Assembly: GCA_029979565.1 (NCBI GenBank)
Contig: JAPOHG010000001.1
Location: forward strand, 1-64,000
Reading direction: 5' to 3'
From: a bacterium
GTDB lineage: Bacteria; Bacteroidota; Bacteroidia; Flavobacteriales_D; Sanyastnellaceae
DNA length: 64,000 nt
The position numbers and the translations under genes were made by a program. Under the pieces are notes generated by a model. The model did no database searches, was not told where the DNA came from, and saw only the letters and a list, made by a program, of their open reading frames with translations. This document shows positions 9,141 to 27,571 of the stretch, in pieces (position 1 is the first letter of the stretch; every line of letters begins with the position of its first letter).

Positions 9141-10397
9141 TCAGTCTTCGATCTCTGTGGCTTGTGCCAAATCGGAGAACTGCAACCGCAAGGTGAAGCG
9201 GAGGGTATTCGCCAGCGGATTCTGCTGACGTGTGGAGATGAGGTAGCTCAAATCAACCGTAAAGACGGTGTACTTGATGCCTGCTCCCAAGGTGATGAAT
9301 TGGCGCGCACCTTTCGAGTAGTGCTCATTAAAAAAGCCGGTGCGGAAGGCGAACGCATCGTTGAAGAGGTACTCAACACCCCCTCCTATGTTGAATTCGC
9401 GCAATTCCTCTCTGAAAATGCTGCCTTCTTCAATCGCGTAGGTTCCGTCTTCATTGAAATTCACAACGCCAGGAGCATCATAGAAGCTTTGGATCATGCC
9501 GGTCGCAACCCCCACGTTGGGATCGTATCCGCTGACAATGGACGTTCCGCTTTCTTGGTCATAGATGGGGGTCGTAGGCACCAAAAGTTTGTTCACATCA
9601 GCCGTGAAGGTCAGGCTGTTGTAATCATCCACTAAGACCTTCAGCGCGGCGCCCGTTTTCAAATTGGTCGGGATAAAGTCACGTTCTGCGGATTCACTGT
9701 AACTCATCTTCGCACCGATGTTCGAAATGCAAAGGCCCCAATTGAATTCTGCGTCTTTGCCGCGGAACTTAGCATTGGGATTGGTGTAGAATGTGCTGAC
9801 ATCTACGGCTACAGATCGACCAGGCTTGGAATTTGCACCCAATACGTTGGTGCCTCCTGTCAAGTTTGAATTGATGAAACGTCCCGCGATGCCACCACTG
9901 AAACGGTCGCTCAATTTCTGGCTGTACCCCACATCCAAGCTGAACTCAGCCGGTTGAAAATCGCGGATGGTTGTGCCGGTTTCGTCCGTGAAGGTGATGT
10001 TTCCCAGGCTGAAGTACCGGAGCGCTCCTCCCCAAGCTGAACGCTTATCAATGCGTCGAACCGCAGAGAGGTAAGCCAGGTTCATGTCGTCTACGAGTGC
10101 ACGCAACCAGGGAGCGTAGGCAAGGCTGAATTCGACCTCGTCAGTAACGAAGGCCATCTTGGCCGGATTCCAATGCAGGCTATTTCCGTCTGGAGAGAGC
10201 GCAACCCCTGCATCGCCAAGGGCTCCCGACCGGGAGTCCGGAGCGATCATCAAAAACGGCACGGCCGTCGTAATGGTGTTTAGCTGCACCTGCTGAGAAA
10301 CCTCTCCAGGCGTCAACTGGGCGCTTGCAGAACCAACCGTCAGCATCAGGACTGCAATGGCGGTCATTTTACACACAAAAGCTTTCATCTCTTTCAT
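9141..10397 (-). CDS. porV: Type IX secretion system outer-membrane protein PorV (LptO)
   Basis: PorV is a 14-strand FadL-like outer-membrane barrel that accepts cargo from the T9SS translocon and shuttles it to the PorU sortase. The 418-residue product starts with a signal peptide (MKAFVCKMTAIAVLMLTVGS, cleavage near ASA-Q). The N-terminal motif LNTITTAVPFLMIAPDSRSG, followed by ALGDAGVALSPDGNSLHWNP, is diagnostic of PorV. Alternating aromatic beta strands fill the rest, to a C-terminal FTLRLQF strand. I chose 10397 (MKEMKAF); 10388 is also possible. An upstream GTG/TTG-type extension has no signal-peptide logic. It lies 45 bases after the porU stop, so porU-porV is an operon. Confidence 0.93.
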   Translation of the reverse strand: MKEMKAFVCKMTAIAVLMLTVGSASAQLTPGEVSQQVQLNTITTAVPFLMIAPDSRSGALGDAGVALSPDGNSLHWNPAKMAFVTDEVEFSLAYAPWLRALVDDMNLAYLSAVRRIDKRSAWGGALRYFSLGNITFTDETGTTIRDFQPAEFSLDVGYSQKLSDRFSGGIAGRFINSNLTGGTNVLGANSKPGRSVAVDVSTFYTNPNAKFRGKDAEFNWGLCISNIGAKMSYSESAERDFIPTNLKTGAALKVLVDDYNSLTFTADVNKLLVPTTPIYDQESGTSIVSGYDPNVGVATGMIQSFYDAPGVVNFNEDGTYAIEEGSIFREELREFNIGGGVEYLFNDAFAFRTGFFNEHYSKGARQFITLGAGIKYTVFTVDLSYLISTRQQNPLANTLRFTLRLQFSDLAQATEIED

Positions 10398-10442
10398 CGT
10401 TGTCGGGGTAGCGCAAAGTAAACGCAAAAAGACATCATTTGG

Positions 10443-13400
10443 TTACGGACGGATAACGACCAACTGGTCAGAATATTGTGCTGGAGCGCCCGATTCAGGC
10501 ACCAATGTCAAACGGAAGACGTACAAGCCGGCGGAAACAGCTGCACCGGTCGCGTCATTCCGTTGGTCCCAGCGGACCGAGCCGTCCCTAAATCCGTCAA
10601 CATGCCATGTCGCTTCTCGGCGGTGCACCAATGAGCCCGAGGTCGAAAACACTTCTAGCACATAACTAGCATCTGAACACGCAAGGTTGTGCTCTATTTC
10701 AAAATTGAATCCCGTAGCCGACGGGTTGGGATAGGCCATCACAGAGCCAATGGCTGCGTCCACGCTTGAGGCGACAATGAAGTCCACCTCAGCACTTCCT
10801 TTGTTGTTTTGCACATCCCAAACAACCAATTCCAAGGTGTGAATGCCCTCCTCAAGTCCCTCAAAAGGATAACGGACCGTACCGCTTTGGTAGGTATTTA
10901 AATCGGTTGTGTAGTGGTCATTCAACACAATGCTTTCGTCGGATTTTCCATCCAAGGTCGCTTTGATGTCATGACCAATGCCAACACCGGAAGCATTGAT
11001 TCCTCCCTCATCAAACACCCGCGCCAGGAGCCACGGATTCTCATCGGTCATGCCTCCGGATTGGAACAATGTATCGTTCAAAAAGAGGTTGACTTCCGGT
11101 GGGGTCTCGTCAACCGCATAGGACGTACTGACCCCGCCCACGATGAAATTCTCGTTCGAGCCGTGTGCATCGGTCGAATCCGAAACGGCGTAGGCACTGA
11201 TGCGCCCTGGGCCGTAACTGTAATCAATGTCGCGCGGTACCACGAATTCAAAGTCGAAGGCACCGTTCGTAACACTCACCACACCCCTGAAAAGTACATT
11301 TCGAAACACTTGAAACGTGTGGGGGTTGGGAGCTCCGTCGTTATTCAAGGTGGTAATATGGGAGCGCTTATCGAAGATTTGCACATGCACAATGCCATTG
11401 AATTCGTACAAGGTGTCACCGGCCACATTCGCGACATGGCCAGCAACTGAAGCCAAATCCAAGGCACGCAACGTATCCGGAAATGATGTGATGTGAATCC
11501 GGTGTTCCGGGTAATTCAACTGCAGCGCCGGGTCGCCCAACAGCGAGAAGTTTCGCTTGTTGCTGCTATTTGAGACTTGCGGGTCGTTTTTGGTCACCTT
11601 GACAATATCCCCCAGACGCAGCGGTACGGAACCCGTGTCTTGCAGGGCGATGGCATAAAAAGCCCGGTTGAGCTGTTGGTTCGACCCACTGAACACCACG
11701 CGGGTGGTTGTCAGCATCGCAATGGCACCGCCATCGGGATTGCGCACCATCATTTCGCCCGCCGAATCCACTTCAGGATCATCGAAACGCGCCAACTCGC
11801 ACGTGGCCGTCATGAACAAGGGCATCCGCGCGAGGTTTTCCCAATTCTGGATGGTGGTCGTATTCAAAATGCGTTCGTGCGACCAGCCGCGTTCTCCGCC
11901 GTGTCCGATGTAGTTCACGATGAGTGCCCCGTCTTGAACCTGTCGGTCAATGGCCAACTGCGCGTCCGGGTACCGCTCCCCGCCTGGCGTGGATTCTTGC
12001 GGGTAGGCGTCCAGGTAAATCTTGGTCACATCGTACTCCGGATGTTCTTGCGCAAGCTTGGTGGCGTGCTCGTCCGAGTTGACCATGTGCTCGATTTCGG
12101 TGGGGCCGCCGTTCCCGTCCATGTCATCACTGACAAAACAAATGCGGTTGCGCCATCGGCCGTCATCAGCTCCGACTTCACCCACACAGCCTCCTTCCAT
12201 GACTTCCGCACTGGGGTGGCGCATGTACGCGACAATTTTATCGACCATGGCGTTCGCCTCGGTTTCGGTTTCGCACGCGATTCGCCCCACACCAATGGCC
12301 AACTTATCGCCAATGCCTTCCCCGTATTGGTCCTCTAAGAAGCCGAAGTAATCATCGCTTACATAGCTACCGTTCGGGCTCACGGAATTTTCGCTTTGGT
12401 AGGTGATGACGTAAGGGGAGGCCTCCAAGTTGACGCGGTTGGCATAGGTGCCATCTCCAAAAAGTTGCAGGTACTTGGGGGGCTCCCAACCGCCATCCAA
12501 GGCACGGTCGCGGAGCATCATCATCAACATCTTGATGGCTGTTGGGTCAATGCTGCCACTCGAAAATTCATCAAACACCGTTCGCTGCGTCGTCACCAAT
12601 ACTTCCAAACCGTCATCCGCGTGGAGTGCAGCAAGGCGTTGAGCAGCTTCAAGGAAAATGGGCCGGGTCACGATCACGAGGTCGGCTCGTTCGACGGCAT
12701 GTAGGTTGGAAGGCGCAACGAGGCCCTCAAATCCCGGTTTTGGCAATGAGGTCGAAGCGAAAGCCACATAAGCGCGGGTCGTATCCGACGCGAGCATCCA
12801 TTTGACCCCGCCGTCCATGGGTTCGAGGGCAACTTCCCGGGGCTGCGGACCATCGGTTACGTCCCAAACGCGCACCCCATCGACCTCGCTGAGCAGTTGA
12901 GATTCGGCCAATTCGCCCATGGAAGGGGGGAAAGCAACGGCCACAGGAGCACCGTCAAACTTCAAATGGCAGGGCTGCTCAACGAGCAGATAATCCAACC
13001 AACCCACGGCGGTACTGACGCCCTTGTTGAATGCAACTTGGACAGAGACCAAGGCATCGTCCGCATCCAATCCGGTCTGCGATGCTGCTGAGCCTTCTCC
13101 TGAGGCACTCGCAAAGTTGGCTACGTTGCTGGTTGACGTCGAACTGGTGTAAGAAGGAGCGGCATCAAACGCGATGTCCCCGCTCGTCACCGAGAACGAG
13201 CTTTGCACCCCCATCGATTGGGCGGCAAATCGCCCGGATACCTTGGCCGCCTCGGCTGTAGGATAAGGGGTAGTGAAGGTAAATGTCCGCTGGTTAATGG
13301 ACCCGAATGATTCGCCAAACCACTCGCGTCCCGAGCGGTTGGGACTCTCCAGCTCTTGTTCGTGAAATTGTACGTTCTGATAGCGGGTGTAAACCGTATC

Positions 13401-14315
13401 CGGCGTTCCGGAAACCACTGTGGCTGGGGAAACGCGTCCTTCGTCAAGTTCTTGATCAATGGCCAAGAAATACCAAGCTTTGTCCTCGTACGGGTGGCGG
13501 AGGTGTTCCCACTCGGAGATACTCGTGTTCCAACCAATCCAATCGGGACCTTCGCCCCAAAAAACCAACTCATCACCATCGTCCCACGCCCCGTCTTCAC
13601 TGCCCGGAAAATCAACGGCGACAGTTCGCAAACCCAACGGGCGATCTTCCGCATTGTCCATGGGGAGCAATGCGCCCCCGTTGCCGAACAGTTGCACCTT
13701 TCGTGGATCAATCGTGTCGGGGTCAAAACCGGCATCGACCATCCAAGCGCGATCGATGCGGTACAGCCCTGATTTTGGAATGGACAACCGCACGGAGGTG
13801 CTTTCGGAAAGCGGATGCTCATCCGGCCATTCTCTGGTGCGGTTGCCGGCAGCATGGGAAATACTGGCCCAGCCTCGCCCAAAGGCCCCCGAAACTTCGA
13901 TCAATCGTTCAAAAACCTGCTTGCTGGAATTCCAACGCAGGAGCGGACCTTTCCATTGGGCAGCGCCGGTGATCGCGGATGTGCTCCATTCACCGTCAGG
14001 CCGGCCAGCCGTGAGAATTTGCCGTTGTCGGGAAGTGAGCGAGGCTTCAGGAGTTTCAACCCAGGACTCCGATTCAGTCAAGCTTTGACCGGATTCCCAA
14101 TCCTCGGGCCAAGGCGTTTCAAAAACACCCCACGGAATTTCATCCAACCAAAACCCGTCCCGAACACCCCAGTGCCCCACGGGTGCGCTTCCTTCCTCCC
14201 ATTGCACGGAGTGAACCGACTCAACGACTTCTACCCCCTTATTTTCCTGGGCATGCAGCGGCATTGAAACCCGAATCAACGCGGCTAAAACAACGGGGAA
14301 AAAGTGGCGAATCAT
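10443..14315 (-). CDS. porU: Type IX secretion sortase PorU, C25 gingipain-like peptidase
   Basis: PorU removes the C-terminal signal of T9SS cargo at the cell surface and attaches the protein to A-LPS. The 1290-residue product begins with a signal peptide (MIRHFFPVVLAALIRVS, cleavage near HAQ). A large N-terminal Ig-like region precedes the C25 caspase-fold domain. The catalytic His is at about 805 in YIGHGGERGWSHE and the catalytic Cys at about 839 in MTATCELARFDD. The C terminus is an Ig-like T9SS sorting domain with the usual MAYPNPSATGFNF start and GLYVFRLTL motif, which PorU keeps uncleaved. I chose the ATG at 14315 because it begins the signal peptide; 14366 would add 17 residues. It is transcribed away from porP/sprF. 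Confidence 0.93.
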   Translation of the reverse strand: MIRHFFPVVLAALIRVSMPLHAQENKGVEVVESVHSVQWEEGSAPVGHWGVRDGFWLDEIPWGVFETPWPEDWESGQSLTESESWVETPEASLTSRQRQILTAGRPDGEWSTSAITGAAQWKGPLLRWNSSKQVFERLIEVSGAFGRGWASISHAAGNRTREWPDEHPLSESTSVRLSIPKSGLYRIDRAWMVDAGFDPDTIDPRKVQLFGNGGALLPMDNAEDRPLGLRTVAVDFPGSEDGAWDDGDELVFWGEGPDWIGWNTSISEWEHLRHPYEDKAWYFLAIDQELDEGRVSPATVVSGTPDTVYTRYQNVQFHEQELESPNRSGREWFGESFGSINQRTFTFTTPYPTAEAAKVSGRFAAQSMGVQSSFSVTSGDIAFDAAPSYTSSTSTSNVANFASASGEGSAASQTGLDADDALVSVQVAFNKGVSTAVGWLDYLLVEQPCHLKFDGAPVAVAFPPSMGELAESQLLSEVDGVRVWDVTDGPQPREVALEPMDGGVKWMLASDTTRAYVAFASTSLPKPGFEGLVAPSNLHAVERADLVIVTRPIFLEAAQRLAALHADDGLEVLVTTQRTVFDEFSSGSIDPTAIKMLMMMLRDRALDGGWEPPKYLQLFGDGTYANRVNLEASPYVITYQSENSVSPNGSYVSDDYFGFLEDQYGEGIGDKLAIGVGRIACETETEANAMVDKIVAYMRHPSAEVMEGGCVGEVGADDGRWRNRICFVSDDMDGNGGPTEIEHMVNSDEHATKLAQEHPEYDVTKIYLDAYPQESTPGGERYPDAQLAIDRQVQDGALIVNYIGHGGERGWSHERILNTTTIQNWENLARMPLFMTATCELARFDDPEVDSAGEMMVRNPDGGAIAMLTTTRVVFSGSNQQLNRAFYAIALQDTGSVPLRLGDIVKVTKNDPQVSNSSNKRNFSLLGDPALQLNYPEHRIHITSFPDTLRALDLASVAGHVANVAGDTLYEFNGIVHVQIFDKRSHITTLNNDGAPNPHTFQVFRNVLFRGVVSVTNGAFDFEFVVPRDIDYSYGPGRISAYAVSDSTDAHGSNENFIVGGVSTSYAVDETPPEVNLFLNDTLFQSGGMTDENPWLLARVFDEGGINASGVGIGHDIKATLDGKSDESIVLNDHYTTDLNTYQSGTVRYPFEGLEEGIHTLELVVWDVQNNKGSAEVDFIVASSVDAAIGSVMAYPNPSATGFNFEIEHNLACSDASYVLEVFSTSGSLVHRREATWHVDGFRDGSVRWDQRNDATGAAVSAGLYVFRLTLVPESGAPAQYSDQLVVIRP

Positions 14316-14411
14316 GAACGGTAAACTCAAGGTACGAAGGTGGTGAAAAAACAGAATGCAACGCAAAGGGCAAAACGCTCGTTAACTACAATTAGTATGG
14401 CATTCGAAAAG

Positions 14412-14427
14412 TTCCCGTGCACGGGAA
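14412..14427. promoter_or_regulatory. Perfect 16-bp palindrome between porU and porP/sprF
   Basis: TTCCCGTGCACGGGAA is its own reverse complement over all 16 bases. It lies in the divergent intergenic region, immediately upstream of the TTTG (14428-14431) that could be the minus-33 element of the porP-like gene. It is flanked by two copies of the 8-mer GCATTCGA (14400-14407 and 14438-14445). The position and symmetry suit an operator for a dimeric regulator, but the regulator is unknown. Confidence 0.5.
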
Positions 14428-14461
14428 TTTGAGAGTAGCATTCGATTTTTTCTTATTCTTG
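14428..14461 (+). promoter_or_regulatory. Candidate promoter of the PorP/SprF-like gene
   Basis: TTTG at 14428-14431 and TATTCTTG at 14454-14461 (one mismatch to TAnnTTTG) are 22 bases apart, slightly wide of the usual Bacteroidota spacing. The minus-7 box ends 23 bases before the ATG at 14485. The 16-bp palindrome abuts the upstream element. Confidence 0.4.
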
Positions 14462-14484
14462 TAAATTCATTGGGAATCATCTTT

Positions 14485-15483
14485 ATGAAGCACCTCCTAG
14501 CAATCCCCGCTGCGGCCCTTATTTTGACCGCTGCATTTGTGAGTTGGACCGGAACCACAGCAAAGGCTCAAGACCCTGAGTTTACGCAGTATTTCGCCAA
14601 CCCACTCTACTTGAACCCCGCATTCGCAGGGTCTGCGCGTTGCCCGCGCTTGACCATGTCGTACCGCAACCAATGGCCAGCCATGAGCGGTTCGTTTGTC
14701 ACCACAGCGGCGGCATATGACCAGCACGTGGAGACGCTTTCCGGAGGATTGGGCTTCATTGTTATGAATGACCAGGCCGGTCGTGGAACGCTATCTACCA
14801 CCACGGCCAGCGGGATCTACAGCTACCAACAAGCCGTGACGCGAAAGCTATCCCTGAAGGCCGCCATGCAGGTCACCTACATGCAAAAGGCCTTGGATTG
14901 GGGGCGCTTGACATTCGGCGATATGATCGACCCACGTCGGGGCTTCATTTACGAAACCCAAGACATCCCTCGTGGCGGCATGGTCCAGGCGGTTGACTTC
15001 AGTACCGGAATTCTCGGCTTTACCGACAAATATTACTTCGGGGCGGCTGTCCATCACTTGAATGAACCCAATGAGTCGTTGGTTGTCGGCACCAGCCGTT
15101 TGCCGATGAAGTACACCTTCCACGCTGGAGCGGTGCTTCCTTTGCAACGGTCCGTAACCGGAATCGAATCAACGATTTCTCCGAATGTCTTTTACCGACG
15201 CCAAGGCGAGTTCCAGCAATTGAACTTGGGCTTGTACGTCAACAAAGGCCCACTCGTTGGTGGCATTTGGTACCGCGGCATCATGTTCACGGATTACCGC
15301 GACGCCTTCATCGTCACCTTGGGCATTAAGTCGGACGTCGTTCAATTCGGCTACAGCTATGATTTGACCGTCTCCGAATTGACCCCTGCTACCGGTGGCG
15401 CCCATGAAATCAGCATGACCATTCAATTCGATTGCCGCGGCAAACGTTCGAAGTTCCGGACAATAAACTGCCCGTCCTTCTAG
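14485..15483 (+). CDS. PorP/SprF family type IX secretion membrane protein
   Basis: 332 residues with a signal peptide (MKHLLAIPAAALILTAAFVS, cleavage near AKA-Q). The mature N terminus QDPEFTQYFANPLYLNPAFA followed by GSARCPRL is the hallmark of the PorP/SprF family of outer-membrane barrels. These act with T9SS cargo, or in P. gingivalis form a cell-surface anchor with PorE. Alternating beta strands follow, with YRNQWPAMSGSFVTTAAAYD near the N terminus and SYDLTVSEL near the C terminus. The start is the ATG at 14485; the in-frame TTG at 14470 is less likely. gldJ follows after a short gap. Bacteroidota carry many paralogues, so the exact one cannot be named. Confidence 0.9.
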   Translation: MKHLLAIPAAALILTAAFVSWTGTTAKAQDPEFTQYFANPLYLNPAFAGSARCPRLTMSYRNQWPAMSGSFVTTAAAYDQHVETLSGGLGFIVMNDQAGRGTLSTTTASGIYSYQQAVTRKLSLKAAMQVTYMQKALDWGRLTFGDMIDPRRGFIYETQDIPRGGMVQAVDFSTGILGFTDKYYFGAAVHHLNEPNESLVVGTSRLPMKYTFHAGAVLPLQRSVTGIESTISPNVFYRRQGEFQQLNLGLYVNKGPLVGGIWYRGIMFTDYRDAFIVTLGIKSDVVQFGYSYDLTVSELTPATGGAHEISMTIQFDCRGKRSKFRTINCPSF

Positions 15484-15524
15484 TTGAATTAAAGCGATTT
15501 AACCTGTCGCACCCTACAATCTGC

Positions 15525-17297
15525 ATGAAACCCACACGAACCTACATTACCATGAATTGGAAGTACTTCGCCCTCGGACTCGCTGCCTCTGCAATGGTCC
15601 TGTCCAGTTGTACCCCCGAGCGCTCTGGTGCCACAGGATGGGCGTACAACGACACCTCTAACGGTGGCTTTGAAAAGCGTTTCTACGCGGGCCAAGAAAC
15701 CGCCCCAGGCCTTGTCTTCATCGAAGGTGGAACCTTTACCATGGGCCAGGTAGAGGACGATTTGACCATGAATTGGGACAACATACCTCGCAGTGTAACG
15801 GTCCCTTCCTTTTACATGGACGAAGCGGAGGTTACCAACTCTTTTTGGCTCGAATACCTCTTCTGGTTGAACCGCGTCTACGGAGATTCATACCGAGAGG
15901 TGGTCCAGCGTGCACTTCCCGACACCTTGGTGTGGCGTGAAAAGCTGGCATACAATGAGCCCTACGTCAATTACTACCTGCGGCACCCAGCTTACCAGAA
16001 TTATCCCGTAGTTGGCGTTTCATGGAACCAAGCCAATGACTTTTGCAAATGGCGCACGGACCGGGTGAACGAACAACTCTTGGTTCGCGAAGGACTGATT
16101 GCGCACAACCCCGAAGCGCAGCTGGACGAAGAGTTCTTCACCACAGAAGCATACCTCACTGGCCAATACACCCCCGAAACGGTGACCGAAGGGTTAACCG
16201 ATTTCCGTCCGGGTTCTTCCGGTGCACGAAACGTTCGATTTGAAGACGGACTGTTTCAACCTGCTTACCGCCTGCCCACCGAAGCGGAGTGGGAATTCGC
16301 TGCCTTGGGATTGATCGGCAACAGTTATGCAGAATTGATTTCGGATCGCCGCACCTATCCCTGGGACGGTCACTACACCCGGAATGACAACTCCCGTTCG
16401 CGTGAATATGGCGGCATGAATGCCAACTTCGCCCGCGGACGAGGCGATTACATGGGTGTCGCCGGCTCCTTGAATGACGGTGCAGCAGCTACGGCATCCG
16501 TTTATGAATACGCCCCCAACGATTACGGTTTGTACAACATGGCCGGAAATGTCAATGAGTGGGTTATGGACGTGTACCGCCCCTACAATGCTGTTGACAT
16601 GGAGGAATTCCGTCCGTTCCGCGGCAATGTTTACCAAACCACGCAGCGCAACGCAGAGGGGATCGTAGCTGACAAGTACGATTTTGTCGTTTACAACGTC
16701 GAGGGGTTGGAGACGGATCTGAAGGCATACGAAAAGGCCGCAATGAAAAACTTCACCGACGAAGAGCAGAACTTGGTCGCCAATATTTTCAATGCAGTTG
16801 AAGCTGCCAAAGAGGAAATCAAGGCCAAGCGCATCGAAGAAGGCCAGGAACAAATTGCAGAGGCGAAGGAGTTGGTTTTGGAAAGCGAAGAAATGGTTGC
16901 CCCGGACCTTTTGGACCTGTTTGTCCAAAACGTTGATGCTGCTCCGGGCGAATTGCGCTACCGTGACGTAACCGTTGAAGAGAGCTTAGGCCGAGACAAT
17001 TATCGGCAAGCGGACAACATCGATTACCTCGATGGCGACTTCCAGTCAAGCATTAAGTATAGCGATGAAGAATTCAATTCGCCGAGCAAGAAAAATGAGA
17101 CGATGTACGGATATGCCAAGACAAGTCTAATCAACAACCGCTCCCGTGTTTACAAGGGCGGTGGCTGGAATGACCGGAGCTACTGGCTCAGCCCGGGAAC
17201 ACGTCGATTCTTGGACGAAGACAAGTCCTCAGCATCCATCGGCTTCCGATGCGCGATGGACCGAATGGGTTCACAAACGTTGAACAGCCCGCGTTAA
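15525..17297 (+). CDS. gldJ: Gliding motility / T9SS lipoprotein GldJ
   Basis: GldJ is a formylglycine-generating-enzyme-like lipoprotein, related to PorK/GldK, that forms part of the T9SS ring and is needed for gliding. The roughly 590-residue product has a lipoprotein signal with lipobox LSSC (ASAMVLSSCTPERSG). The FGE-sulfatase fold follows: FIEGGTFTMGQ, YPVVGVSWNQANDFCKWRT, RLPTEAEWEFAALG, YNMAGNVNEWVMDVYRP and, at the C terminus, RVYKGGGWNDRSYWLSPGTR and GFRCAMD. A charged helical insertion of about 90 residues splits the domain near its C-terminal third. Start is 15525; an ATG at 15552 (MNWKYFALG) also gives a good lipoprotein signal. The gldJ-murF order is conserved in Flavobacteriales. 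Confidence 0.93.
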   Translation: MKPTRTYITMNWKYFALGLAASAMVLSSCTPERSGATGWAYNDTSNGGFEKRFYAGQETAPGLVFIEGGTFTMGQVEDDLTMNWDNIPRSVTVPSFYMDEAEVTNSFWLEYLFWLNRVYGDSYREVVQRALPDTLVWREKLAYNEPYVNYYLRHPAYQNYPVVGVSWNQANDFCKWRTDRVNEQLLVREGLIAHNPEAQLDEEFFTTEAYLTGQYTPETVTEGLTDFRPGSSGARNVRFEDGLFQPAYRLPTEAEWEFAALGLIGNSYAELISDRRTYPWDGHYTRNDNSRSREYGGMNANFARGRGDYMGVAGSLNDGAAATASVYEYAPNDYGLYNMAGNVNEWVMDVYRPYNAVDMEEFRPFRGNVYQTTQRNAEGIVADKYDFVVYNVEGLETDLKAYEKAAMKNFTDEEQNLVANIFNAVEAAKEEIKAKRIEEGQEQIAEAKELVLESEEMVAPDLLDLFVQNVDAAPGELRYRDVTVEESLGRDNYRQADNIDYLDGDFQSSIKYSDEEFNSPSKKNETMYGYAKTSLINNRSRVYKGGGWNDRSYWLSPGTRRFLDEDKSSASIGFRCAMDRMGSQTLNSPR

Positions 17298-21715: not shown

Positions 21716-24700
21716 TTACTCTGGGCAATCCGAACCGAATTGAGACAGGAAGAAGAGCAAGTCAGGGGTACCGACTTGGCCGTCTTCGTTAACATCTGCT
21801 GGGCATGGGTCGGTGAAGTCGAACTCACACGTCCCGTTTTCCATGGTCGCCGAAGCGTCATAATTCGAAGCATCCGCGTACGTGCAGCCGTAGCAGTCGT
21901 ACGTGCAAGAGCCGTCGTCAAAGAACGCTCCACCGTTGAAGTTGCATGCGCTCGCATCCACACAGCCGAAGGCCGATGAGTTTGGTGCACCCGGGGTGCC
22001 GTTGTCCACCCAGCTCGCTTGCCAGTTGTCCGGATCCTCGTTGTTCAGATCGGTTTGGATCAATTCCAGGCTTGAGCAACCGCCGTCAGGGCTCTGGACC
22101 AAAACGTTGCCCAAAACCGCAACTGTTTGCGCTGGCCATGGATCGGCGTCGTCATAAGTGACGGCGTTGACCACATTGCCGAAGCCGTCTTCAATGCTCA
22201 CGCCTTCACCGGAGTTGGAGAAGTTGCCCAAGTCCAATTGGAAAACCTGAACACCCAATCCGCTGTAGTTGGCCGTACCGGCATCGGAAACGGTCATCAG
22301 GACGTATTCACCCGCGGCAATCGACGTGCCTTCTGGGAAGACGTAGCCGAGCTGTGGGGCGCCGCTGGCGGAGTTGTAGAACTCGAAACCACTGATGTCA
22401 GCAGCCATGTCGCCACCGTTGTAGATCTCGACAAACTCGTAGTCGAAGTCATTGCCCTGTGCACTGCACGGGTTGTAGTGGATTTCATTGATGACCAAGT
22501 TGGGCAACGTGTAGTAACAATCCTCGTTGGTTGGGTTGTTGACGCCCTCTTGGTAGTTGAATGCTGCAGGATCATCGCAACCGCTGATGATGCAAGAGCC
22601 ATCGTCCAAGGTCGCTGCTGGATCGTAGTTGTCTGCCGCAGGGTCTGTGCAACCGGGCGCATCCACACACGAACCATCGTCTTCTTGTGCATACGGATCG
22701 TAGTTGCTGAACGAAGCCGTTGTGCAACCCAATCGGACAACATCCGCGGAGTCACGTGGCAACAACTTCCAGGCGCCGTACGCGTAGAAGTTCGGGCCAA
22801 CAACACGGTACGAACGGCCTTCTTCCAAGAGCGGTGCGTACGTTGCTCCGCCGTCAGCGGTCAATGAATCGCCGATGGCGTCGTAGCCCACATCATCGAT
22901 GACGCCGATTCCGGAACCGTCGTTCAGGTGCCATTCGCCGTAACCGGCATCTGCGTTGACGCATTCACCGGTCATGCTGATCAATACGCACTCCCACTGC
23001 TCATCGTTGATGGCTGCAGTCGCGAGCATTTCTGCTTCCGGCAAAGCGTTGCCTGATGACAAGACTTCAGGTGTCGCCGCTTGGATCTGGCGCAAGCCAT
23101 ATACTTCGGTCACGTTGCCCAAGATGGACACTTCGTCGCCGAGGGCGACTCCATCACCGATGACCCAGATGGCCGAGTTGGGTCCTGTGCCGTCTTGGAT
23201 GACGTACGAGGCTTGGCCGGCCAATCCACCCGTTGGAGGGTAGGTCGCCGTTACGATGCCTTGCGTTTGCATTTGACCGCTCAACCCACCAGACTGGATT
23301 TCCTGGATGGTGAAGTTGTCTATGTAGATGCATGAACCGTCATCCGAGGTTGCATTTTCATCGTAGTTGATCGCGAATGGATCGGTGCAACCACTGGTCG
23401 AAGCTGCACAAGAACCCGAGAACGTGTGCATGCCCAAATCCGTGAAGTCATCTTGATCGAGTACGATCCACTCGGAATCCAATTCATTGGTTCCCGCTGA
23501 CATGGCCCAATCACCACCGTTGCCCGTGAAGACGAATTCGTTTCGCACCAACGTGTGGTTTTGGGTGGCATTGGTGGTACCCGCGACCTCCCATCCTGAA
23601 CCCGGGTCTGGGCCGATGGTTCCGATGATGTCCACCAATAAGGTGTCCTCACCGGCCAATTCAAACAAACCGTACGTATCGTCACCGTTGGAGAGGTATT
23701 GGTATGTAACGTTCGCTACGTCCAAAATCTCCTGAGCAGCCGAGGGGTGCGCAACGATGTACGTGCCGCCTGGAGCAAGTTCCGCATCGAAGGGGAAGTT
23801 GAACGTGAAGTAATCGAATTGGTCGGATACGTTTGGCGCATCGGGCGTATCGCATCCGTTGCTGCAGTTGCCCAAAATGTACTGGCTCAAGAACACCGTT
23901 GAAGCGGTTGGGTTGTACAGCTCGAGGTACTTGTTGTTGCTGCTGCCCTCAGAATATTCCGAGAAGAAAATGCCGCATGACTCGCCGGAAAATTCACATG
24001 AGCCGTCGTCGATGCCTGCACCTGGATTGTAGTTGGCCGCATCTGCGCTTGTGCAACCGTACAACAAAGCGTCGGCTTCAGAGCGCGGTTGAATTTTGAA
24101 ATTACTGAACGAGTAGTCCAGTGGACCTGTCACCTGCCACGTGCTTCCTGCCGTCACGTATCCTGTGCCAATAGCATCGTAACCACGGTCGTCCACACGG
24201 CATTCACCCGAGGTATCGTCCAAGCCCCACTCACCATAACCAAGGCTTGGCGAACTCACATCACCTGTGACTTGGACCAATACCCCTTCCCACTGCTCGT
24301 CGGAAGCCACCGTAGCGGTGCTCAGCACCTCAGGGGTTGGCATGTCCGCATTTTGAGCGTTGATCACAACTGAAACGTCGGTCAACTGGGTCAATCCATA
24401 GTACTCAGAAACCGTACCGGTGACTTCAATGTCGTCACCGACCGCTACCGGCACATTCGGTCCGAACATCCAAATCCCACTGTAAGCCCCTTGGCCATCT
24501 TGCAAACTCACGAGGGAGCCGTAGACACCCGTGACCACACCGTTCGTCACCACCGTGGTGCCCGTGTAGGCATCCGTCAACTGGCCTTCTTGAATGGCAG
24601 CAATTGCCGTCGTGGTAACTTCCAAGCAAGAACCGTCGTCGAAATCAGCTGCTTCGTTGTAGTTGGGCGCTGCAGGGTTGGTGCAACCACCGGTACCGAC

Positions 24701-25711
24701 CGTAACCGTTCCGACCATGCCCAAAGCAGCGTGCGTGCCGACCGAGCAATCGTACGTGTAAACACCTGGAACGGTGAACGTGAAGCTGCCGATGCATACC
24801 GGACTTCCGCCCGAGCTCACGGGTGAGAAGTAGAAGTCTTCTGGGTTACCGAAAGATTCTCCAGTCTGTGTATCAGTCGTGCCATTCGCATTGTGAGAAC
24901 CACCTACGTTTTCCCAAACAACTGTTGTACCTGGCTCAATGGCCAAATCAGTGGGGCTGAAGTAGTATGATCCTGCTGCGACTACAACGCCGTCGACGTT
25001 GCATGCATTGTCAAAGGTGCATGAGCCATCGTCTTCGGTAGCTGCTGGGTCATAGTTTGTAGCGTTTTCGTTGGTGCATCCGGGAACAGCTGCACCGCAA
25101 CTTCCAGTAAATTCATGAGCTCCGAGGTAGTCCCAAGTGTTTTGCGGGTATACAATCCATTGGCTGTCATCGGCATTCGTACCGGCCGAAGAAGCCCAAT
25201 CGTATCCAATTCCCGTGGTTACATCAGACTTTCGAACCAATGTGTGGTCTTTCGTCCCATCGGTTACGCCTGCAACAGCCCAACCTGAACCCGGGTCGCC
25301 TTCAAAATTGCCGATGATGTCCACGAAGGTGTAGTCGCTTTCTGTCCCGAATACGAGGGCGTAGCCGTCATCTCCATTGAAGTAGGCATTACCAGTTTGA
25401 TCCGTTTCCGCAATGATCGCCGGATCGCTGGATGGATTGGCCCAAACAAATACGTCGCCCGGAGCAATGGTAGCACCAGCTGAGAACGTATTCCAGTATT
25501 CATGAACACCAACTGTGGTAGGCGCATTCCCTACTGATGCGATGGCATACTGGGTAAGGTCAACCGTTTCCGATGTTGGATTGTAAATTTCGAGGTACTT
25601 ATTGCTGCTACTTCCTTCTGAATACTCAGAGAAAAACAGCCCGCATTGAGCGGTACCAGCTAGGCTTGCTCCGAAAAACAAGGCTGCCAGCAACAGGTTT
25701 AGTGAACGCAT
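21716..25711 (-). CDS. Secreted mosaic protein: lamin-tail, cupredoxin, OB-like and calcium-loop domains
   Basis: 1331 residues with a signal peptide (MRSLNLLLAALFFGASLAG, cleavage near TAQ-C). Three lamin-tail domains lie at about 24-205, 579-770 and 1070-1235; the first two open with almost the same sequence (FFSEYSEGSSSNKYLE / FFSEYSEGSSNNKYLE). A cupredoxin domain (about 236-342) has all four type-1 copper ligands: H273, C322, H327 and M332. Two OB-like modules follow lamin-tail 1 and 2. Eight copies of a cysteine motif, GCTxxxAxNYDPxAxxDDGSC, plus one degenerate copy, link the modules. The C terminus is DVNEDGQVGTPDLLFFLSQF, a single EF-hand/dockerin-like loop; no classical T9SS sorting domain is seen. 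It is probably an extracellular or surface protein; the function is unknown. Confidence 0.85.
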   Translation of the reverse strand: MRSLNLLLAALFFGASLAGTAQCGLFFSEYSEGSSSNKYLEIYNPTSETVDLTQYAIASVGNAPTTVGVHEYWNTFSAGATIAPGDVFVWANPSSDPAIIAETDQTGNAYFNGDDGYALVFGTESDYTFVDIIGNFEGDPGSGWAVAGVTDGTKDHTLVRKSDVTTGIGYDWASSAGTNADDSQWIVYPQNTWDYLGAHEFTGSCGAAVPGCTNENATNYDPAATEDDGSCTFDNACNVDGVVVAAGSYYFSPTDLAIEPGTTVVWENVGGSHNANGTTDTQTGESFGNPEDFYFSPVSSGGSPVCIGSFTFTVPGVYTYDCSVGTHAALGMVGTVTVGTGGCTNPAAPNYNEAADFDDGSCLEVTTTAIAAIQEGQLTDAYTGTTVVTNGVVTGVYGSLVSLQDGQGAYSGIWMFGPNVPVAVGDDIEVTGTVSEYYGLTQLTDVSVVINAQNADMPTPEVLSTATVASDEQWEGVLVQVTGDVSSPSLGYGEWGLDDTSGECRVDDRGYDAIGTGYVTAGSTWQVTGPLDYSFSNFKIQPRSEADALLYGCTSADAANYNPGAGIDDGSCEFSGESCGIFFSEYSEGSSNNKYLELYNPTASTVFLSQYILGNCSNGCDTPDAPNVSDQFDYFTFNFPFDAELAPGGTYIVAHPSAAQEILDVANVTYQYLSNGDDTYGLFELAGEDTLLVDIIGTIGPDPGSGWEVAGTTNATQNHTLVRNEFVFTGNGGDWAMSAGTNELDSEWIVLDQDDFTDLGMHTFSGSCAASTSGCTDPFAINYDENATSDDGSCIYIDNFTIQEIQSGGLSGQMQTQGIVTATYPPTGGLAGQASYVIQDGTGPNSAIWVIGDGVALGDEVSILGNVTEVYGLRQIQAATPEVLSSGNALPEAEMLATAAINDEQWECVLISMTGECVNADAGYGEWHLNDGSGIGVIDDVGYDAIGDSLTADGGATYAPLLEEGRSYRVVGPNFYAYGAWKLLPRDSADVVRLGCTTASFSNYDPYAQEDDGSCVDAPGCTDPAADNYDPAATLDDGSCIISGCDDPAAFNYQEGVNNPTNEDCYYTLPNLVINEIHYNPCSAQGNDFDYEFVEIYNGGDMAADISGFEFYNSASGAPQLGYVFPEGTSIAAGEYVLMTVSDAGTANYSGLGVQVFQLDLGNFSNSGEGVSIEDGFGNVVNAVTYDDADPWPAQTVAVLGNVLVQSPDGGCSSLELIQTDLNNEDPDNWQASWVDNGTPGAPNSSAFGCVDASACNFNGGAFFDDGSCTYDCYGCTYADASNYDASATMENGTCEFDFTDPCPADVNEDGQVGTPDLLFFLSQFGSDCPE

Positions 25712-25851: not shown

Positions 25852-26469
25852 TCAGCCGAACAGCCTCATTTGCTCGGGCAACTGCCGAAACGTCGCTCGG
25901 TGATGTGGAGTGGTGCCGAGTTCCCTGATGGCTGAACGGTGCTGTTTCGTTGGGTAACCGGCATTGGAATTCCATCCATAGCCTGGGAATGCCGCGTGCA
26001 ACTCAAGCATGTAAGCGTCCCGGTGGGTTTTAGCCAACACACTCGCCGCTGCAATGGATGCAAACCGAGCATCTCCCTTGACATAACACGCATATTCCGG
26101 AAGTCCCTCGGCCGTTCGAAACCGGTTGCCATCGATGAGCATAAAATCCGGCTGAATGGCCAAAGCCCGAACCGACCTTCGCATGGCAGCGAACGATGCA
26201 TTCAAAATATTGATCTGATCAATTTCTTCGGGCGAAACGTGCGTTACTGCCCAAGCCAGCGCCTTGGCCTCAATCTCAACGCGCAATGCATCACGCTTCG
26301 CCTTGGTCATTTTCTTCGAATCATTCAGGTGTCCTTCCCGCACGAGCTGTTCCGCAAATTCAGGCTCAAGGACCACTGCCGCGGCTGTAACGGGGCCCGC
26401 CAAGCAACCTCGACCTGCTTCATCGCAGCCGGATTCCAAGCGGTTTCGTTCGACCCAAGGTTCAAGCAT
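25852..26469 (-). CDS. rnhB: Ribonuclease HII
   Basis: RNase HII cleaves the RNA strand of RNA/DNA hybrids and starts removal of misincorporated ribonucleotides. The 205-residue product has the catalytic start GCDEAGRGCLAGPVTAAAV (Asp and Glu of the DEDD set) and LNDSKKMTKAKRDALR. LIDGNRFR and AAASVLAKTHRDAYM contribute the remaining acidic residues. I chose the ATG at 26469, which overlaps the glycosyltransferase stop by 8 bases (ATGCTTGA) and suggests translational coupling. An ATG at 26490 would add seven residues and a larger overlap. Confidence 0.95.
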   Translation of the reverse strand: MLEPWVERNRLESGCDEAGRGCLAGPVTAAAVVLEPEFAEQLVREGHLNDSKKMTKAKRDALRVEIEAKALAWAVTHVSPEEIDQINILNASFAAMRRSVRALAIQPDFMLIDGNRFRTAEGLPEYACYVKGDARFASIAAASVLAKTHRDAYMLELHAAFPGYGWNSNAGYPTKQHRSAIRELGTTPHHRATFRQLPEQMRLFG

Positions 26470-27571
26470 GGTTGGCCAATATCTTTTCAATGGATGCCAT
26501 CAGTCTTCTGGCGGAGGTGTCCCACGAAAAGTCTTGCGCGCGTTTCAAACCCGCCTTGACAGCGTTTGCTCGAAATTCACCGTCAGATTCCAGACGATTC
26601 ATGGCCTCTGCAATTTCCTTGGCATTGGACGGGTCTACCAAAGCGGCCGCTGCCCCACCGCAGACCTCTGGCATCGCGGTTGCATTGCTTGCTATCACTG
26701 GGACACCCGAGGCAAAAGCCTCGACAATCGGTACACCGAAGCCCTCGAACCAAGGCACAAAGACCAGCCCCGCTGCCCCACGCATCACTTCCGCCAAAGC
26801 ATCGCGACCCAGGCGTCCCGCGTAGTGGACGCCCGCTTGAGGCACTTCACTCGAGGTCCACATCCCCGCTCCAACAATCAAAAGTTCATATGCCCCGCCT
26901 CGAGCCCGATACAATGCATACGCCTCCAGCAACCCCTTCATGTTTTTCCGCGGATGCAAGCTTCCTACAAACAGAAAGTATGGGCGGTTGGCGGTGTAAC
27001 GCTTTTCGGACGGGGCACCTTCATCGGTGTTCGGGGCATAGATTGTATCCGGGGCATTGTATACCACATCAATTGCCTCAGATGTCACCCCAAACTGCTG
27101 AACGATATCTGCCTTGGAAAATTCACTCACCGTCACCACCCGTTCGGCAATCCGGGCAAATTCTGGGAAACGGCTTCGGTAATACGCCGCCTCCTGCTTC
27201 GGCATCCACTCGGGGTGGTGCATGAAATTCAAATCGTGAAAAACGGCCAATTGCGGCACCCCTGTTTTGCGGCTGAGCATGCCGTCAGTGGAGACGAAAA
27301 CGTCCGCCTTCCACCTGCGCAGGGCACGGGGTACGCTGTAATCGTACCACACATCGTACAGGAATGGCCGGCGTGCTGGAGGCCACAAGTGCATGGAGTT
27401 CGCATTGGGGCCATAGCGAAATGCCGCATTCGGAGGGCGGTCGAAAAGCAGCAAAAACTCATGCTCAGGATGGGACGCGATGATCCTCCGGTAACACGCA
27501 TCCGTAAACCACCCAATACCTTCCAGGCGATCGGGAATCAAGAGCCGTGCGTTGAGCGCGATGCGAGCCAT
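26462..27571 (-). CDS. GT4-family glycosyltransferase
   Basis: A 369-residue retaining glycosyltransferase with the GT-B fold. The N-terminal acceptor domain opens with MARIALNARLLIPDRLEGIG. The C-terminal donor domain has PYFLFVGSLHPRKNMKGLLE and the E-x7-E sugar-nucleotide signature in PWFEGFGVPIVEAFASGVPV. VVTVSEFSKADIVQQFGV is the usual inter-domain segment. It acts in the cytoplasm, probably adding mannose or a related sugar to a lipid-linked glycan, which fits the flippase and polymerase genes next door. The start at 27571 leaves a 34-base divergent gap to the flippase; longer in-frame extensions run into that gene. Confidence 0.9.
   Translation of the reverse strand: MARIALNARLLIPDRLEGIGWFTDACYRRIIASHPEHEFLLLFDRPPNAAFRYGPNANSMHLWPPARRPFLYDVWYDYSVPRALRRWKADVFVSTDGMLSRKTGVPQLAVFHDLNFMHHPEWMPKQEAAYYRSRFPEFARIAERVVTVSEFSKADIVQQFGVTSEAIDVVYNAPDTIYAPNTDEGAPSEKRYTANRPYFLFVGSLHPRKNMKGLLEAYALYRARGGAYELLIVGAGMWTSSEVPQAGVHYAGRLGRDALAEVMRGAAGLVFVPWFEGFGVPIVEAFASGVPVIASNATAMPEVCGGAAAALVDPSNAKEIAEAMNRLESDGEFRANAVKAGLKRAQDFSWDTSARRLMASIEKILANHA

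Follow-up and report, generated by a model that had tools for sequence, protein, structure and literature searches.

A nuclease-less mosaic of lamin-tail and OB-fold modules with a predicted type 1 copper domain in marine Flavobacteriales

Introduction

ExeM of Shewanella is described in PMC6085458 as an extracellular nuclease in which a lamin-tail domain (LTD) is accompanied by a region with two putative OB folds, crucial for activity, and by a nuclease domain. In DNA-degradation loci of Candidatus Izemoplasmatales, an LTD occurs together with nucleic-acid-binding domains and a nuclease domain, and a cupredoxin is not mentioned in the parts of PMC8289736 which present this protein. Here we analyse a gene of a member of the Sanyastnellaceae (Flavobacteriales_D; assembly GCA_029979565.1) in which modules of this kind are combined differently. 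The gene lies in a stretch of 64,000 nucleotides (contig JAPOHG010000001.1, positions 1 to 64,000), hereafter called the window, as a minus-strand open reading frame (ORF) at 21716–25711 which has an ATG start and encodes 1331 amino acids with a hydrophobic N-terminus. We refer to the product as the mosaic protein. With a probability of roughly one half, we consider it a non-catalytic, ExeM-like scaffold at the cell surface or in the extracellular matrix which carries a redox-competent (or copper-holding) type 1 site.

The single parts are known, while their combination with a cupredoxin and a dockerin-like tail is new as far as we found. In the open-access literature we found no description of LTD and cupredoxin combined, nor of a role for this combination or for the tail. 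The same literature yielded nothing linking LTD with type IX secretion, or plastocyanin and fasciclin with Bacteroidetes. Cupredoxins with type IX secretion led to an unrelated paper, and neither LTDs in Bacteroidetes nor dockerins (GC-type, with type IX secretion or in Planctomycetes) brought up the combination seen here.

Module architecture

From the N-terminus, a signal-like stretch is followed by LTD1, a cysteine motif, the cupredoxin and another cysteine motif. An OB pair, a cysteine motif, LTD2, a cysteine motif and the second OB module come next, and the C-terminal part comprises three cysteine motifs (the last a longer variant), LTD3, two cysteine motifs and the dockerin-like tail (Table 1). 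An earlier note, made from the sequence, had already listed three lamin-tail-like domains, two OB-like modules, eight cysteine motifs of one type joining the domains, and a duplication of the LTD and OB modules with the cupredoxin in the first copy only. Most of this list holds. Pfam LTD (PF00932) matches in three stretches (E 1.8e-36, 125.2 bits against a curated cut-off of 34.3). Residues 23–233 align with the second half of the protein at 49.5% identity (E 3e-56) and residues 330–572 with the second OB module at 39% identity (E 8e-47), whereas a single Pfam Copper-bind domain is present; the third LTD has no OB module behind it. There are exactly eight GC-x18-C motifs, to which a ninth, longer variant is added, and 2000 shuffles gave a mean of 0.11 and a maximum of 2. 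The E values of the duplications and the shuffles rule out a chance origin of these features. The count of two OB-like modules needs refinement: duplicated modules are present, but the first, which was modelled, consists of two consecutive OB folds. The C-terminal dockerin-like loop was absent from the earlier list.

The LTD–OB core

In NCBIfam, LTD1 has a match to ExeM and the first OB region one to NucH, both with scores well short of the cut-offs (NF033680 and NF033681; 97.6 of 1300 bits and 57.8 of 300 bits). A structure model of the first half (residues 21–576; built from 24 sequences, five models) reached a best mean predicted local distance difference test (pLDDT) of 85.3, with 82 to 64 for the other four, and a predicted template modelling score (pTM) of 0.44, so that the single domains are credible and their relative placement is not. 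In this half, the first OB region is modelled as two successive OB folds. One of them superposes on the OB part of Asn-tRNA ligase (6pqh_C; Z 12.8, root-mean-square deviation (rmsd) 1.6, 87 residues aligned). The next resembles the small chain of telomeric Stn1-Ten1/CST complexes (4joi_C, Z 11.8, rmsd 3.3, 98 aligned; 6w6w_D, Z 11.4, rmsd 2.1, 89 aligned), which judging by its length is taken to be Ten1. Foldseek also returns the HIN domains of p204 and IFI16 for the OB region, with poor superposition (rmsd 8 to 19). The ExeM-like order of an LTD and then two OB folds is found in the first half, the cupredoxin intervening between LTD1 and the OB pair. The earlier note had called the mix unusual. 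This is true of the cupredoxin; an LTD with two OB folds is the front part described for ExeM (PMC6085458).

No endonuclease/exonuclease/phosphatase domain or other nuclease domain matches the protein in Pfam at E up to 10, on which ground an active nuclease was rejected. Judged by its sequence, the mosaic protein is not an ExeM, since it has no nuclease domain and stays below the family cut-offs. Furthermore, its LTD–OB unit is doubled and supplemented by a third LTD, a cupredoxin is inserted, and a dockerin-like tail stands where ExeM has a predicted C-terminal membrane anchor. It differs from the Candidatus Izemoplasmatales protein, too, in lacking a nuclease domain.

LTD modules keep company with nucleases in this genome. 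LTD1 shares 50% identity with the LTD of an Endonuclease I, and the gene of an LTD protein with an OB-like region (seen by eye) converges with that of a nuclease-family protein which ends in a dockerin-like tail. Further LTD proteins of the genome (L100) are exceptions, not being in the company of nucleases.

The cupredoxin domain

Residues 244–338 match Pfam Copper-bind (PF00127; E 6.5e-9, 36.6 bits against a curated cut-off of 21.2). The fold which the earlier note had expected is obtained in the structure prediction: the modelled domain superposes on plastocyanin 2plt (VIA comparison; Z 12.4, rmsd 1.6 Å, 87 residues aligned), and its Foldseek matches include amicyanin, plastocyanin, pseudoazurin and auracyanin. 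The ligand set named in that note, H273, C322, H327 and M332, is found at these positions, and in sequence alignments it falls on the H, C, H and M of pseudoazurin and plastocyanin. Two more residues separate the cysteine from the second histidine than in these aligned proteins, which gives C-x4-H-x4-M instead of C-x2-H-x4-M. The longer spacing is that of auracyanin and rusticyanin.

Every one of the 26 ortholog rows (25 distinct contigs, one entered twice) has all four ligands, as well as two additional cysteines, 237 and 306. Across 62 distinct homologous cupredoxin domains in the loci analysed, paralogues included, with a median pairwise identity of 56%, the complete set is retained in 60. 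The other two lack the cysteine and the second histidine, yet keep both flanking cysteines; one belongs to a very large, different protein (L178) and one to a true ortholog (L139, genus g7). Even a loose H..C..H..M pattern arises in just 12 of 20000 shuffles of residues 236–342. By family match, fold and ligands the protein belongs to the plastocyanin/azurin-type cupredoxins, as it does to the LTD family, although the domain is embedded in 1331 residues and has two extra invariant cysteines. From alignment and model, it is predicted to bind one type 1 copper, and we regard this as likely.

Cupredoxins are found on other proteins as well. The second one of this genome (L097, contig C2, 1780–3723) lies in a protein that has a type IX sorting domain as well as three fasciclin domains. 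In relatives, a type IX domain can be the sole companion of a cupredoxin (L181, L186) or be joined by Fib_succ_major, and other cupredoxins are accompanied by cysteine motifs plus a dockerin-like tail. Within the order, 117 of 299 genomes have cupredoxin matches, one to six in each.

Conservation of the locus

At E up to 1e-60, the mosaic protein is matched in 71 of the 114 genomes of the family, some matches being contig-end pieces, and in 21 of the 22 genomes of its genus, its own included. The earlier note had suggested looking for this domain order elsewhere; the protein is no one-off, since a single near-full-length match exists in 36 of the 114 family genomes (33 without internal stop, three with one). 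The ortholog search gave 26 loci, the last three of them distant or partial. Over the two halves, 23 aligned orthologs are 60–84% and 60–93% identical. The neighbourhood comprises rnhB, a LuxE-like gene, tyrS and glycosyltransferase or polysaccharide-type genes: of 27 loci, 25 have rnhB adjoining the mosaic gene and the other two start inside that gene at a contig end, while the LuxE-like gene is beside it in 21 of 27. A one-off fusion or misassembly was discarded because the same domain order recurs in 24 further distinct loci and the genomic location is conserved.

Seven long relatives from genera with larger genomes possess the LTD, the OB modules and the tail, with no cupredoxin in the gene; in five of these, the stretch examined also contains rnhB. 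Since versions with and without cupredoxin share the rnhB locus, the copper domain is lineage-specific, and the LTD–OB scaffold with its tail is the shared part. In genus g20 (three stretches), one extra OB module is present and the cupredoxin is kept. The seven cupredoxin-less versions form one group in a midpoint-rooted LTD3 tree (27 rows; support 0.999). In the midpoint-rooted RnhB tree (24 rows), the five cupredoxin-less genomes available do not group.

Two matches come from unexpected records. A contig labelled Rhodopirellula sp. (L027, MED697) encodes the Flavobacteriales mosaic at about 61% identity, with neighbouring genes of the same order, and is probably a binning error. An unannotated human-gut 'Bacteriophage sp.' record (MT835709.1) is 37% identical over 27% of the query.

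The dockerin-like tail

The calcium loop of dockerins follows the pattern D-x-N-x-D-G-x5-D. In the tail, D1306, N1308, D1310 and G1311 are kept in 26 of 26 rows and D1317 in 24 of 24. With its C-terminal loop and helix, the tail resembles the GC-type dockerins (NF041540), but it has one unit instead of two, scores 15.2 bits where the cut-off is 29, and covers half of the model. Cohesin was not found in this genome, whose assembly is 79.6% complete. One cohesin match each is present in seven of the 114 family genomes (five over the cut-off), none of them among the 22 of this genus. Dockerin_GC matches occur in 90 of the 114, and both partners only in G014, G031, G040 and G043. A dockerin bound to a cohesin, as in cellulosomal systems, was rejected on the grounds of the missing cohesin and the score below cut-off.

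A search with the tail in its own genome gave 41 places (E up to 10), of which 30 with loci were examined. These represent 26 distinct frames, and in 25 of them 0 to 7 residues separate the stop from the unit or, where two stand in tandem, from the second one; the remaining frame (L052) has an internal unit. The type IX sorting domain (TIGR04183/PF18962) is over its cut-off at 52 places in the genome, and a comparison of places by eye found no overlap between the frames listed for it and the 26 tailed ones. It has no Pfam or NCBIfam match in the mosaic protein which, by this sequence criterion, is not a type A cargo of type IX secretion.

Two nuclease-family proteins are among the tailed proteins of the genome, together with one that has carbohydrate-binding domains and an esterase-like one whose carbohydrate-binding match falls slightly short of the cut-off; further tailed proteins that were scanned gave no informative match. 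Among Endonuclease I proteins, 47 C-termini were readable (28 of 30 loci, two being cut by the end of the stretch, and 19 of 19 matched frames). All of them finish with a dockerin-like unit, single or in a pair, and none, as judged by eye, with a type IX domain. The two ends are not swapped in these proteins, which gives no support to the idea that the tail is an equivalent, swappable replacement for the type IX domain. One Endonuclease I of the genome (L096, contig C44, 2206–3951) has an LTD, cysteine motifs and a dockerin-like tail, and 77 of the 114 family genomes match it at E up to 1e-40, LTD-only matches counted.

Type IX secretion genes are also present in the window, at 9141–17297 and a few kb from the mosaic gene: PorV, PorU and the PorP family exceed their cut-offs, and a GldJ-like gene narrowly misses its own.

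Proposed role and alternatives

We propose that the mosaic protein is exported and acts at the cell surface or in the extracellular matrix. LTD plus OB–OB, present twice, and the third LTD would hold a polymer, for which extracellular DNA is the first candidate. Polymer holding is the most likely task because the core resembles the substrate-handling front of ExeM/NucH minus the nuclease domain. The cysteine motifs would link the modules, presumably through disulfides, and the terminal dockerin-like loop may bind calcium and would sort or anchor the protein. In some genera, the plastocyanin-like domain between LTD1 and the first OB pair would bind one type 1 copper and thereby give the scaffold a redox-competent or copper-holding centre. 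That relatives lack the cupredoxin at the same locus speaks against copper being essential to the scaffold itself.

The earlier note had spoken of an extracellular protein, redox or adhesive in nature. An extracellular location is indirectly supported by the signal-like N-terminus (seen by eye), by the conserved cysteines and by paralogues of the modules on Endonuclease I or beside a type IX domain. The redox or adhesive part fits the predicted cupredoxin fold and the fasciclin domains borne by the second cupredoxin protein, any such activity being putative.

Several observations weigh against the proposed scaffold. The protein is very acidic (isoelectric point (pI) 4.05, net charge −173, with −20 and −21 for the OB modules), which disfavours plain electrostatic DNA binding. 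The same pI is found in two exported nuclease-family proteins of this genome. Lysines and arginines total 16, and the few basic residues are not randomly placed, since K539 and R543 (26 of 26 rows each), K982 (25) and R986 (26) occupy equivalent places of both OB modules. OB folds are common, so that the structural matches are no proof of nucleic-acid binding and reveal no ligand. According to PMC6085458, ExeM deprived of its LTD retains the ability to clear DNA on plates, though it is less active in vitro, and the LTD has no established function. The models of the first half, with the pTM given above and mean pLDDT values of 64–85, place the C322/H327 block at a pLDDT of 77; the second half was modelled at a mean pLDDT of 49, a low confidence, and was left unused. 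Finally, ortholog L139 has lost two ligands, which indicates that copper is not indispensable in every lineage.

The copper site could instead serve an extracellular electron carrier, exchanging electrons with an outside partner while the rest of the protein only positions it. The conservation of the full type 1 set, the auracyanin matches with their shared spacing and the family cupredoxins accompanied solely by a type IX domain are consistent with such a carrier. We consider it unlikely, as no redox partner was recognised among the neighbours of the locus and the gene exists there without cupredoxin.

Copper buffering or acquisition, in which the domain traps copper at the marine cell surface, might explain the conserved ligands, the two cupredoxins of this genome and their multiplicity in the order. 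However, type 1 sites in known proteins perform electron transfer rather than storage, and by eye no gene for copper transport or resistance stood out among the window ORFs of at least 200 amino acids (no family search was made), which renders this role quite unlikely.

A purely structural module, the cupredoxin barrel acting as a spacer for which copper has no importance, would account for the two domains which lost ligands and kept their flanking cysteines, but it is very unlikely with all four ligands intact in 60 of 62 domains. Least credible, and close to dismissed, is a decayed ExeM persisting as a remnant after loss of its catalytic domain: the sub-threshold ExeM/NucH matches are restricted to LTD and OB, and no NucH match over cut-off exists in the 114 family genomes, where the listed matches cover the OB part or the nuclease part, yet a pattern of decay is not seen because the orthologs are near full length, mostly free of stops and similar to each other.

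If the scaffold reading is true, a secreted nuclease has lent its front end, minus the catalytic domain, to a conserved scaffold. Related genera offer the same locus both with the copper domain and without it, so that the effect of this domain can be compared. The tail draws attention to a group of proteins which, in an organism with type IX secretion, end in dockerin-like loops though no cohesin was found. More tentatively, and in our view rather doubtful in this general form, these loops could constitute a second, cohesin-independent C-terminal signal which sorts or anchors exported polymer-handling proteins in marine type IX Flavobacteriales, one of them a nuclease-less ExeM-like scaffold putting a blue-copper redox centre onto a surface-bound polymer.

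Feature coordinates

Table 1. Features of the mosaic gene and its conserved neighbour, with positions in the window and the basis of each assignment
Feature	Position	Strand	Basis
Whole gene, 1331 aa	21716..25711	−	ORF and orthologs
Signal-like N-terminus, residues 1–21	25649..25711	−	sequence by eye, no predictor
LTD1, residues 22–205	25097..25648	−	Pfam, NCBIfam, internal alignment
Cysteine motif 1 (211–231)	25019..25081	−	GC-x18-C pattern
Cupredoxin domain, residues 236–340	24692..25006	−	Pfam, structure comparison, alignment
H273, first predicted copper ligand	24893..24895	−	alignments, conservation
C322, H327, M332 (C-x4-H-x4-M), remaining predicted copper ligands	24716..24748	−	alignments, conservation
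Cysteine motif 2 (342–362)	24626..24688	−	GC-x18-C pattern
First tandem OB pair, residues 366–550	24062..24616	−	NCBIfam, structure model comparison
Cysteine motif 3 (552–572)	23996..24058	−	GC-x18-C pattern
LTD2, residues 576–768	23408..23986	−	Pfam, internal alignment
Cysteine motif 4 (774–794)	23330..23392	−	GC-x18-C pattern
Second OB module, residues 797–990	22742..23323	−	pair by homology, 39% identity to first
Cysteine motif 5 (995–1015)	22667..22729	−	GC-x18-C pattern
Cysteine motif 6 (1020–1040)	22592..22654	−	GC-x18-C pattern
Ninth, longer cysteine motif variant (1044–1065)	22517..22582	−	internal alignment
LTD3, residues 1062–1246	21974..22528	−	Pfam
Cysteine motif 7 (1249–1269)	21905..21967	−	GC-x18-C pattern
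Cysteine motif 8 (1275–1295)	21827..21889	−	GC-x18-C pattern
Dockerin-like tail, residues 1297–1331; loop D1306-N1308-D1310-G1311-D1317	21719..21823	−	NCBIfam, genome search, conservation
rnhB, conserved neighbour directly upstream, same strand	25852..26490	−	locus comparison

Cysteine motifs in other proteins

The second cysteine motif (24626–24688, minus strand; residues 342–362) matches the macrophage-expressed gene 1 protein (perforin-2; structure 6sb1) at E 0.0015. Both share GCTN, N(F/Y)N, A and DD.SC with identical 21-residue spacing, so a solved structure of the motif may already exist within this animal immune protein. In the mosaic protein, unlike in perforin-2, the motif is a repeated linker between other domains, and no Pfam perforin match is present. 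The open-access literature gave no paper containing the DDGSC motif, in a search that would overlook papers with this motif as their sole link. A giant protein of a relative (L178; 3–11300, minus strand) holds 89 loosely matched copies of the cysteine motif over the 3766 amino acids read, beside the cupredoxin lacking two ligands.

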